From: Sacculina carcini
Lineage: Eukaryota > Arthropoda > Thecostraca > Sacculinidae
Direction: 5' to 3'
Assembly (NCBI GenBank): GCA_916048095.2
Contig: OU696588.1
Location: 3,917,501 to 3,981,500, forward strand
Length of the DNA stretch: 64,000 nt
Part shown: one piece after another, positions 10,101 through 16,100 of the stretch
How positions within the stretch are numbered: the stretch's first letter is position 1
Layout of the letters: each line of letters begins with the position of its first letter
The notes under the pieces: generated by a model
Told to the model about the DNA's origin: nothing
The model's database searches: none
Seen by the model: only the letters and a program-made list of their open reading frames with translations
Position numbers and translations under genes: made by a program

Positions 10101-13100
10101 AGCCTACTGTCAAAATGACTAAGTTGGCTACAAATACATAATGAGCCGAAAAATATACTTCGCTCCTCCATCTTTTTCCATTTTCAAACATTTTTGAAAA
10201 AATCCCAGCGAGCCACTAGGCCAGTGGTTCCCAAACTTTTCTAACTTGCGGCGCCCTTATAAGGAAATACATATTTAATATATCCGTTGGTTGCATTATA
10301 TTTTTCTAATTTCGACATTTTGCATCGGTGTAACAACACCTTATGCATATATATGAATTTTTTATTTACACTGATCCTGTTATTACAAAAAATGGTAATA
10401 TAATACAAATATGCAATTCTTCCCCTGAATTTTGGCGGTACCCTCAAAAGATCTCACGGCACCCCTTGGTGCCGCGGTACACACCGGTTGGGAACCACTG
10501 GTCCAGACAGCGCTAAACAGCCGCACCTTGCCTCTATCAATAGCTCGCCTACTCAGTGAATGCTCATTGAGAAATAGATGGCCAAATGCCGTTCTATGAG
10601 ATGTTGCTATGAACACTGGAAGATGGTAGATACTGGTGTTACGGTAGTGGTAACGTACGTTGGTGGTTGCGTCCGGTGTGGCTCTGTTTTGTAGCAGCAG
10701 ATTAATAACCAGCGTGTGACCCTGCTGGGCCGCATGATGAAGCGGAGTGTAGCCAGCATTGTTCACACAATCCACCTACACACACACACACACATACACG
10801 TTCATGCGTCAATTTGACATTGAGAACATGAACGACACTCAATATACTAATCGTATCACACTGACGATCGTCAATTAGCACAGCACAGCGCATATAAATT
10901 ACACAAGATAGCTGTACATAACACAGAACAGCTACAACGGTTGGTGGTGAGAAGAGATATGATGATAATGTGCTAGACACATATCAAAATATGTTACGAC
11001 TTATCTTGTTGTATAGTGCATACAATTATATGGCGTTTATTTATTCAATTATTGACATTTATCTTCAATGTAATTTTTATGAATGACAAAGAAAGTTTCT
11101 TAAACGAAAAAACAGCAAAAAACTGGGTTTCTGTAATATATTCACTGAAAACTGTGAAAGAAACATTTCTATATAATTAATTTTACAGAATTATTCTAAC
11201 CGCAAGTGCCCGTTAGTTGTTTACCACGAGTTTTATTTAGGAAGTATATTTACGAGATATAGAGATATAGTAGTTGCGTTTGACTGAGTCATTTCAAGAC
11301 TGGATTGTGTTTGTGAAGCATCGTTTTCGCATACTGTCAGTTTTGACCTAGCGTCGAAGGTGAATACCTGAAGACAACATGCCAACAATGAGCAACAAAA
11401 GCGATATTGATGAAGCATTCATCAAACTCCTAGCCTGGACCGGTGTTACCGAAGAGGCAGCAAGGCTATGCGTCCACTATAACATCACCACAAAGTGGAG
11501 CATGGTTACCAACTGGAAGAAGACCATTCGCCAGTGTCCGGCGTACTATGTGCGCCATCTCAACAACTTCTCGGCGAAAATGAACACCAAGAAGCCGAGT
11601 AAAGTTCTCGCCATGTGTGGCAAGCATACCACTTTGCTGCGGGATCTGGAGATCTCGCTGCGAACGTACAGCAGATGGTGGCTGCTAGATTTTGTGCAGC
11701 AGCAACAAGGAGTCCTTGTTCTGCTTGAATACATGAATATTATAGTGTCGGCCAAAGAACGTGCTGACCAAGAAGAGCAGACCACCATTCAAACATGCTG
11801 CATGCAGATCTTCAAAACTTCAACTTCAAACAACAAAAAATCCACTCGCATTGCCAATGCACACCAGGTGTTACACCAATGTGTGCTCTGTCTCAAGGCA
11901 ATTGTGGGCGAGAGGCAATCACTCAGCAGAATTGAGCTGGATCGGGACAATACCCTAGTGCTGGTACGTTGCGTCGATTTTATTCAGCAAGAGGCCACTG
12001 CAACGAACATTATGGGCATTTTGAAAACGTTGGCCAAAAACAACCAGAATGTTCACGCAGCAATTCAAGAGGTTCGCTACATGGACCTCTGCACGCGTGA
12101 GATTGGTCAATTAAGCAAGCTAGTCACCAATTACGATGAGCCTGGGCCTCAATCACCCTACATCGATTACCCTGATATTCCTCGGATAATCAACTGGGTT
12201 GTTTGTGAGGATAGCGGAATAACTAGCCGCCAGTGTGATGTCAAGCCAATAAGCAAAGAAGCAATGCTCTTCAGTGAGATGTCAAAATCATTGGAACTTT
12301 TGAAATCCATGTGTTCAGTCAGTTTACAGAACAAGCATCCGGCCATTGAAGACGTCTGGAAATCTGCAAACGGTGATTTGAAAATACCACAAACATCACC
12401 ATCACCATCACCGTTACGAATACCATCATCATCACCGTTACCGATACGAATACCATCATCATCACCGTTACCGTTACGAATACCATCATCATCACCGTTA
12501 CCGTTACGAATACCATCATCATCACCGTTACGAATACCATCATCATCACCATTACAACCACCATCATCGTCACCATTACCGTTACGAATACCATCATCAT
12601 CATCACTACCACCCTCATTATCACCACCACCATCACCATCTACACGACTACCATCTCCACTATCATCACCATCATCAACAAGAACATTATCATCACCGCT
12701 GCTCCAACCGTCACGACGTATTCGTAACGTTACGTTTAGTTCTGTTTCGCGTAACAAGTCCTTGAAGGGCAAGCGAACTTACGAGCTAGTGGCACCGACG
12801 CATCTGCGCTCTGACTCAACAAACGGTGAACTCGACACCGACATCACCACTAAGTCGATGAAGACTCCGGCCAAAGTCAGTGTGGACGCGGAAAAGGCGG
12901 CACACGTCGTCGACCCTACCAGCACCGAGATGGTCAGTGTGGATCTAGTTCCTGCAGGGGCCGCTGCCGAGGCGATGGACGCGGCCGCGTGCCCCAGCCA
13001 GTACTCGCTGGCCGATTTTGATCTGATCCGGGTGGTTGGACGCGGCGGCTACGGCAAGGTATTGAAGGTGGAACTGCGGCGCACTCGGCGCGTCTACGCC

Positions 13101-16100
13101 ATGAAGGTGATCAAGAAGGAGCTGATCACTGACGACAAGGATATCGGCCGAGTGCAAACCGAGGCACACGTGTTTGAGACGGCGTCCAAGTACCCGTTCT
13201 TGGTGGGATTGCACTCGTGCTTCCAAAGTCCCAGTCGGTTGATTTTCGTGATTGAGTTTGTGCGTGGCGGCGACCTCATGTTTCACATGCGGCGCTATGG
13301 CAAGCTATCCGAGGAGCACGCCAAGTTCTACTCGGCGGAGCTGTGCCTGGCACTCAATTTTTTGCATGAGCACGGCATCATACATCGTGACCTGAAATTG
13401 GAAAATGTACTGATCGACTACGAGGGTCATATCAAGCTCACTGACTACGGCTTGTGCAAGGAAGGAATGCGGCCGGGCGACACAACGTCCACCTTTTGCG
13501 GGACGCCCCGCTGCATCGCGCCGGAGATGGTGCTTGAAAAGGATTACGACTTCAGCGTGGATTGGTGGTCACTGGGCGTGCTCATGTTCGAGATGCTGAC
13601 TGATCGCACTCCGTTCGAAATTGGCGATGATATTGAAGCGCTCTATGCGAACACCAATGAATATATGTATCGGACGATTGTCGAGAAGAACGTCCGCATT
13701 CCACACTCTTTGTCGAAGAATGCGCGCAGAATCCTAAAGGGATTCCTAAAAAAGAACCCGGTGGAGCGACTGGGCTGTCATCCGGACACCGGCTTCGAAG
13801 ACATAGTTCGGCATGCGTTTTTCAACAGCGTCAACTGGCCGCTACTGGAGCAGAAGCAAGTGACGCCGCCGTACAAGCCACACATAAAGACTGAACGTGA
13901 CCTGGCAAACTTTCCGTCCAAGTTCACCGACGAGTCAGTGCGGCTGACACCCGACGACACAAGCACCATTGAAAAAATCGATCAGAGCCAGTTTGACGGT
14001 TTTGATTATGTGAACCCGCTGTTGATGTCGTCATCACCACCATCATCATCACCTTCATCATCATCACCCTCATCATCACCACGACCACCATCATCACCAA
14101 GAACATTATCATCTCCGCTGCTACAACCGACGCCATTTATTCCTAACGCTACGTTTAGTCTTGTTTCGCGTGACAAGTCCTTGAAGGGCAAGCGAACTTA
14201 CGAGCTAGTGGCACCGACGCATCTGCGCTGTGCCTCAACAAACAGTGAACTCAACACCGACACCACCACTAAGTCGATGAAGACTCCGGCTAAAGTCAGT
14301 GTGGACGCGGTAGAGACGGCACACGTCGTCGACCCCACCAGCACCAAGATGGTCAGTGTGGATCTAGTTCCTGCAGGGGCCGCTGCCGAGGCGATGGACG
14401 CGGCCGCGTGCCCAAGCCATTACTCGCTGGCCGATTTTGACCTGATCCGGGTGGTTGGACGCGGTGGATACGGCAAGGTATTGATGGTAGAACTGCGACG
14501 CACTAAGCGAGTCTACGCCATGAAGGTGATCAAGAAGGAGCTGATCACCGATGATAAGGATATCGGCCGAGTGCAAACCGAGGCACACGTGTTTGAGACG
14601 GCGTCCAAGCACCCGTTCTTGGTGGGATTGCACTCGTGCTTCCAAAGTCCCAGTCGGTTGTTTTTCGTGATTGAGTTTGTGGGTGGCGGCGACCTCATGT
14701 TTCACATGCAGCGCTTTGGCAAACTATCCGAGGAGCACGCCAAGTTCTACTCGGCGGAGCTGTGTCTGGCGCTCAACTTTCTGCACGAGAACGGCATCAT
14801 CTACCGTGACCTGAAGTTGGAAAATGTACTGATCGACCACGAGGGTCATATCAAGCTCACTGACTACGGCATGTGCAAGGAAGGAATGCAGCAGGGCGAC
14901 AAAACGTCCACCTTCTGCGGCACGCCCCACTACATCGCGCCAGAGATGCTGCTTGACGACGAGTACGGCTTCAGTGTGGACTTGTGGTCGCTGGGCGTGC
15001 TCATGTTCGAGATGATGACTGGTCGCACTCCATTCAAAATTGGCGATCATTCTAAAGCGCCCGGCGAGGAGAGCAATGACTATTTGTATGACATGATTGT
15101 CGAGAAGACCATCCGCATTCCGCACACTTTGACGGCGAATGCGCGTAGAATCCTGAAGGGGCTTCTAAAAAAGAACCCGGTGGAGCGACTGGGCTGTCAT
15201 CCGGACTCCGGCTTCGAAGACATTTTTGTGCATCCTTTCTTTACGAGCGTCAACTGGCCGCTACTGGAGCAGAAGCAAGTGACACCGCCGTACAAGCCAC
15301 ACGTCAAGACTGAACGTGACCTGGCCAACTTTCCGTCCCATTTCACCGACGAGCCAGTGCGGCTGACACCCGACGACACAAGCACCATTGACAAAATCGA
15401 CCAAAGTCAGTTCGAAGGCTTCGATTATGTCAACCCTCTGCTGATAAAGTTCGAGGACCACGTATGACCCACCAGCATGTTCTCTTGTCGCCGCGTCCGT
15501 GTGTGTGTGTGGACGGGTGTGGTTGCTTATGAAGATATCACCACCATCATTATCAATATCACCATCGCCATCATCGAGATCATCATGACCAGAATCGCCT
15601 TAATTACCATCATCGCCTAGACCTCCACCGCCGCCACGACCACATCAACATGCGCCAACAATGCACAAGAAACATGAACCAAAACGTGGACCAAAAAACA
15701 AGAAGCAAAATGAAGCAAGAAGCAACATCAACCACAAGACATGCATTATAAAAACTTTGTACACACATACTGGGTGCAATTCAATACATTCATACAAATA
15801 TTTAACGTTTTTTCATGATTGAACGTTGTCAACCAGCTTCGTTGAATTGGCTTGTCGCGGTTTAAGGCAATCATATATCACTGGACGATGAAAATTTGAG
15901 TTATCGGAAGGACACATACCCACATATAATAATAATTTTATCATTCCTATTATAGTCATTCAATAATAGGAATGATAAAAGATATACATTGAATTAATTC
16001 AACCACTTGGAGCGTGACAATACAGACGCCATTTGAGCTATTTCAGGGTTGAATAATTCCAAAAATGTAAATGTGAATGTATTCAACAACGATGTACAGA

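Follow-up and report, generated by a model that had tools for sequence, protein, structure and literature searches.

The Rho-GTPase effector kinases PAK, ROCK, PKN, and MRCK carry a GTPase-binding region ahead of a Ser/Thr kinase domain and use CRIB, HR1, or coiled-coil regions for binding. Two further systems, the atypical protein kinases C (aPKC; PKC iota and zeta) and the FMNL formins (FMNL1-3 and Drosophila Frl), are relevant to the gene described here, which lies in a 64,000-nucleotide stretch of the Sacculina carcini genome (assembly GCA_916048095.2, contig OU696588.1, positions 3,917,501 to 3,981,500; hereafter, the window). By its sequence, this intronless gene joins a formin-type GTPase-binding domain (GBD) to two aPKC kinase domains. 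The protein would work like the effector kinases but, unlike them, has a formin GBD and tandem kinases in one chain. It almost certainly belongs to a large family of intronless fusion genes, in which an FMNL-type front end is followed, where a formin has its FH2 domain, by the linker and catalytic domain from an aPKC of barnacle type. That such fusions encode GTPase-recruited tandem kinases is the best overall explanation of the data, with a probability of roughly 0.6; whether the kinase is active and recruited by a GTPase is, on its own, an even call.

The family's linker, kinase, and C-tail derive from aPKC, for which the barnacle-type protein P0002 and Pollicipes P0005 serve as references. 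The family retains the activation-loop Thr and the turn motif of aPKC as well as an acidic hydrophobic motif, whereas PB1, pseudosubstrate, and C1 are missing. The Gly loop has changed from GRGSYA to GRGGYG and the hydrophobic-motif Glu to Asp, and, of 230 near-invariant aPKC columns, 23 are substituted or absent in 90% or more of 37 family kinases. The window gene shares the N-terminal GBD with FMNL formins, and intronless frames with an FMNL-type GBD and an FH2 are present in the same genome. Unlike these formins, the window gene has no FH2, no autoregulatory tail, and no FH3 profile match. The window protein also lacks the Met-Gly start, which is the myristoylation site of FMNL2 (PMC4432619, in the passages covered). 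No signal peptide is apparent by eye, no prediction program having been applied. Titles and abstract openings in the open-licence literature yielded no formin-aPKC fusion, which is weak evidence of absence.

Architecture of the window gene

An initial annotation, made from the letters alone, had described a single intact frame, nested antisense in an ankyrin intron, with two complete aPKC kinase domains. All of this holds. The frame has no internal stop, and Pfam finds one Drf_GBD, two Pkinase, and two Pkinase_C stretches in its product. Minus-strand ankyrin-repeat motifs lie on both sides of the gene, and it therefore appears to sit antisense within an intron of an ankyrin gene, as far as motifs show.

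In the full window protein, Drf_GBD scores 41.3 bits (E 1.5e-10; Pfam cut-off 30.1), rising to 46.8 bits when the N-terminus is searched alone. The N-terminus alone also matches FMNL2 (4yc7_B, 1.8e-10) and FMNL1 (4ydh_A, 7.1e-10) in the PDB, with the next row at E 0.11, and a profile of 17 paralogues finds FMNL1 at 4.1e-10 and FMNL2 at 3.7e-9. What these matches show of the formin front end is the GBD and the early armadillo part only. AlphaFold models of the N-terminus, alone and with the 17 paralogues, had a mean pLDDT of about 41, too poor to judge FH3, and were not used. In FMNL2, H222 contacts E95 of Cdc42 (PMC4432619, again in the passages covered). H166 of the window protein aligns with this residue, given an inferred numbering offset, and His is also found there in subfamily C and in L035. 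Protein-database searches with residues 1-600 and 1-335 gave nothing at E ≤0.001 among candidates of 0.55-1.75 times 1,362 aa, a range in which shorter fragments would be missed and which does not imply absence in other species; in the search with residues 1-600, for which 8,000 candidates were scored, Ser/Pro words probably drowned out other matches.

Homology to aPKC begins in the last C1 residues and continues through linker, kinase, and C-tail. Pfam gives no PB1 (PF00564) or C1 (PF00130) match in the window protein, and the pseudosubstrate is missing in the alignment to canonical aPKC. The second kinase (K2) matches PKC iota at 3.5e-162. It and the first (K1) both keep 18 of 18 catalytic and regulatory positions checked, with the activation-loop Thr and the hydrophobic-motif Asp present in each. 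A tree was built from 16 aPKCs and 46 distinct family kinases (from 47 with a length of 320 aa or more). The family kinases group in a single clade (100/99), joined first by P0002 (98/77) and then by Pollicipes (97/99), a topology that places them within the aPKC clade, next to the barnacle aPKCs. An 11-residue linker motif is the same in P0002, nearly the same in Pollicipes P0005, and not found in the other aPKCs read. The protein-database search for aPKC relatives covered about 245-780 aa and 8,000 candidates, lengths at which multi-kinase relatives could not be returned.

The two linker-kinase units of the window gene are 89% identical over 1,415 bp, the mark of an internal duplication. Because of this identity, and because each unit comes after TCA-type repeats, the sequence suggests repeat-mediated unequal exchange as the route. 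Between the K1 and K2 kinase domains, the nonsynonymous rate (dN) is 0.085 and the synonymous rate (dS) 0.25, with an NG86 ratio of 0.34; the ratio reaches 0.78 in the third quarter of the kinase and 1.6, with few changes, in the 101-codon linker. K1 and K2 differ by 54 amino acids, as against 76.6 in a neutral simulation (0 of 5,000 runs as low).

A fusion family in the genome

The annotation had further proposed that a retrocopied aPKC became joined to a formin N-terminus. The intronless joining stands, whereas the picture of a lone chimera does not: there are at least 55 frames with both GBD and kinase, and copies have spread as DNA. The search covered 264.4 Mb in 43 contigs. With the window protein as query, at least 92 matches were obtained (34 of 1,329 candidates scored, hence a lower bound), 85 without an internal stop and 7 holding one. 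A Drf_GBD search, with all 147 candidates scored, gave 135 rows, 131 of them above the cut-off. Grouped by contig, strand, and frame length, these rows make 132 frames, of which 125 reach 250 aa and 109 reach 500 aa. The 132 frames rule out a lone chimera.

Kinase rows number at least 130 (130 scored of 714 candidates), and 97 of the 130 fall inside a GBD frame. Among the frames with both domains, 28 have one scored kinase, 13 two, 13 three, and 1 four. Of the 109 GBD frames that reach 500 aa, 54 show no in-frame kinase among the scored rows. The real count is higher, because the kinases of contig C26 frames (found by Pfam in L037) are absent from the scored rows, and some contig C20 members (L032) have a GBD in the fetched DNA that the Drf_GBD search missed. 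For 23 of the 130 kinase rows, no GBD is listed within 9 kb upstream; 16 of these 23 are family members on C20 or C31. Intronless family frames reach 2,897 aa. Pfam finds a GBD with four kinases in a 2,738-aa frame (GBD 25.4 bits, against the cut-off of 30.1) and with three kinases in frames of 2,249 aa (GBD 27.8 bits, below cut-off) and 1,717 aa.

Some loci depart from this layout. In L033 and L034 (C9, at about 7.48 and 7.65 Mb), two GBDs stand in tandem ahead of long Ser/Pro repeats, and the fetched part holds no kinase. In subfamily B (L013, L015, L016, L019, L022, and L024), an AGC C-tail piece (kinase residues 300-343) without a catalytic domain lies between linker repeats.

The Sacculina carcini genome paper reports two protein-kinase-domain families as the most strikingly expanded (PMC9582164, in the passages covered). 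These families are probably the fusion genes described here; the passages covered give no formin part, aPKC origin, or architecture for them.

Intronless formins and a probable domain swap

Among the FH2 rows in the genome, four are unsplit and nearly full-length, and one of these holds two stops. The 687-aa frame L041 combines a GBD, a proline stretch, and an FH2. Over 253 residues, its GBD shares 60% identity with that of the window gene (E 3.7e-93), and its FH2 is closest to FMNL3 (1e-28). L042, an 867-aa GBD-FH1-FH2 frame with an FH2 likewise nearest FMNL3 (1.1e-20), is more distant from the window GBD (30%, E 1.7e-32). Split-formin pieces, with GBD and FH2 rows on one strand, occur at C21 and C9. 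Sequence comparison makes the family look like a set of retro-FMNL genes whose FH2 gave way to an aPKC kinase. In the GBD tree, a branch separates the kinase rows from the rest in 6% of bootstrap replicates, which does not place L041 either before or within the kinase forms; the direction of the swap, from FH2 to kinase, is taken from the distant outgroup L042 and from general formin knowledge. At C21:5171527-5205956, six FH2 C-terminal matches of equal score, spaced mostly at about 5.5 kb, are perhaps tandem formin 3' parts.

Selection and catalytic integrity

All 17 GBD regions are free of stops. Pairwise NG86 dN/dS is 0.26-0.66 over 55 GBD pairs from 11 representatives (0.29-0.41 between subfamilies) and 0.21-0.56 over 45 pairs from 10 kinases. 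For the GBD pairs, YN00 runs higher, up to 0.94 in one close pair, and gives no value for one pair. In a one-ratio codon model, omega is 0.474 for 17 GBDs and 0.321 for 24 kinases, values that come from paralogues, in which gene conversion is possible; fixing omega at 1 worsens the log-likelihood by 24.9 and 115.4, respectively. Purifying selection on GBD and kinase is thus supported, in line with the selection that the annotation had read from the intact frame. A chance frame or pseudogene is rejected by the codon-model omega and by the neutral simulation of K1 and K2.

Among 53 near-full-length kinases chosen by homology, a set that excludes 20 shorter pieces, 44 are intact at each of the 14 positions checked, although 8 of the 44 have a stop inside the aligned stretch. 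Selection by Gly-loop pattern had given 42 of 49 intact, a figure biased upward because the pattern demands an intact Gly loop. The Gly-loop change from Ala to Gly is found in 37 of 37 complete domains. In L038 only the turn position is changed, and L035 is cut by the locus end.

Several results weigh against a GTPase-recruited, catalytically active family derived from FMNL formins. The FH3 that the annotation had placed beside the GBD drew no profile match, either in the window protein at E ≤1 or in the 17 paralogues at E ≤0.1. At the position of H166, subfamily B has Asn and L037 has Lys, and the residues of armadillo repeats 4-5 that contact Cdc42 could not be located. The GBD of L041 alone scores 21.7 bits, under the Pfam cut-off, and, against the split-formin GBD pieces, the window N-terminus gives no more than noise-level matches (25% over 83 residues, E 0.049; 38% over 26 residues, E 0.58). 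Six of the 53 kinases are altered at Gly-loop, Lys, DFG, or T-loop positions and look catalytically damaged: the first kinase of L025, L026, L028, and L030, another in L030, and one in L008. The damaged first kinases thus belong to four subfamily C members. The L037 kinase is changed at catalytic-loop and turn positions.

Such losses would fit proteins that act as multivalent decoys and sequester active Rho GTPases together with the partners of aPKC, so that binding would matter and catalysis would not. The decoy explanation also accommodates GBD frames with no kinase in the part fetched (L033) and the C-tail pieces that lack a catalytic domain. It is nevertheless unlikely, given that most of the 53 kinases keep every checked position and that omega is lower for the kinase (0.32) than for the GBD (0.47).

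Spread of the copies

The 180 bp upstream of the ATG can be aligned in all 11 representatives. Over this block, the Jukes-Cantor distance is 0.197 between the window gene and L031 (dS 0.376) and 0.265 between the window gene and L028 (dS 0.549), about half the silent distance; over 300 bp, the window-L028 distance is 0.457. As judged by these alignments, the copies have spread as DNA together with a promoter-proximal block. In several copies, a promoter module located at about -243 to -119 occurs a second time at about -420 to -295.

Tandem arrays with a spacing of about 20-30 kb occur on C20, C24, and C31; near-identical copies lie within arrays, and diverged copies on many contigs. Retrogenes are often expressed in testis. 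A germline- or male-biased retrogene family that amplified locally and took on a narrow reproductive role, rather than one in general polarity signalling, would fit both this tendency and the arrays with their near-identical copies. This role is improbable, to much the same degree as the decoys, and it is compatible with the same biochemistry as GTPase-recruited kinases.

Beside the gene of the sister copy L012 lies a stretch 95.5% identical to the window ankyrin exon (10711-10799). In addition, the window flanks 15957-16077 and 20648-21606 adjoin in L012, and the long terminal repeat (LTR) element that separates them in the window is absent. Segmental duplication therefore accounts for at least L012, and the LTR element was inserted afterwards. 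In L011, the stretch in common with the window is 10983-15697 and includes no ankyrin sequence. These relationships bear on whether the fusion gene travels as transposable-element cargo, for which copies on many contigs, the long interspersed nuclear element (LINE) and LTR frames contained in the array units on C24 and C31, and the LTR element just downstream in the window might speak. With that LTR element a later arrival and the shared ankyrin exon pointing to segmental duplication, cargo status is very unlikely. That the gene is a decayed retrocopy whose frame is open by luck, or an artefact of assembly, is scarcely credible, since the frame break in the first kinase of L012 and the 7 of 92 matches holding a stop are outweighed by omega well below 1, the shortfall of K1/K2 changes against neutrality, the stop-free GBD regions, and the diverged copies on many contigs.

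Features of the window

Table 1. Positions in the window of the fusion gene, its parts, and neighbouring features.
Feature	Position	Strand	Remarks
5' leader / promoter-proximal block, common to the family	11199..11378	+	alignable in 11/11 representatives
Intronless fusion gene	11379..15467	+	1,362 codons plus stop
Drf_GBD (FMNL-type GTPase-binding domain and early armadillo part)	11394..12032	+	residues 6-218
Conserved N-terminal region	extends to 12383	+	to about residue 335
Ser/Pro-rich stretch from TCA/ACC-type tandem array	12385..12629	+	Tandem Repeats Finder (TRF); D2 family
aPKC-derived linker, first copy	12744..13013	+	homology begins in last C1 residues
aPKC-type kinase domain and C-tail, first copy (K1)	13014..14027	+	
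Second Ser/Pro-rich stretch	14031..14153	+	TCA-type array at 14031-14099
aPKC-derived linker, second copy	14154..14432	+	
aPKC-type kinase domain and C-tail, second copy (K2)	14433..15464	+	
Ankyrin-repeat motif, host-gene exon on one side of the fusion gene	10728..10754	-	
Four more ankyrin-repeat motifs, other side	23246..28451	-	23272, 25010, 25384, 28451
LTR retroelement (rve, RT, DUF7047)	16072-20337	-	end repeats 16072-16200 / 20209-20337, 96% identical

Elsewhere in the window, a 928-bp AC dinucleotide array (27136-28063, 99% pure) gives long spurious frames on both strands, and 30137-31792 (-) holds a 551-aa reverse transcriptase frame (RVT_1, 4e-36). tRNA-Ala(cgc) at 22171-22243 (-) and tRNA-Val(cac) at 61089-61160 (-) are genes or tRNA-derived repeats. 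By eye, 10217-10505 is a possible hAT-like short element, with inverted ends around GGTTCCCAAAC and GTTGGGAACC.

Proposed mechanism and implications

The two kinases of the window gene come from in-frame duplication of a linker-kinase unit beside TCA-type repeats; the number in relatives is one to four. The GBD would bind an active Rho-family GTPase, with Cdc42 the best guess from FMNL ancestry, and binding would bring the tandem kinases to the membrane or cortex. There, they would phosphorylate aPKC-type substrates without Par6/PB1 or pseudosubstrate control. Because the activation-loop Thr, the turn motif, and the acidic hydrophobic motif are kept, priming by PDK1, as in aPKC, would be expected.

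A formin GBD with aPKC kinases would bring together, within a single chain, two arms of Cdc42 signalling that are otherwise separate and, if active, would provide a natural test of aPKC freed from Par6 and the pseudosubstrate. With at least 55 GBD-kinase frames and 109 long GBD frames, the family amounts to an extensive radiation of one fused signalling gene, and it may explain the kinase-family expansion reported for Sacculina carcini. With retro-formins that carry GBD and FH2 present in the same genome, it may be possible to reconstruct the domain swap. More tentatively, and at rather low odds, a retroposed formin may have traded its actin-nucleating FH2 for aPKC and radiated into scores of genes. 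One animal lineage would thereby have gained a layer of polarity kinases of its own, recruited by Cdc42, independent of Par6, and in some cases with three or four catalytic domains in a single chain; in a rhizocephalan barnacle, they could help pattern the root-like body that replaces normal crustacean anatomy.

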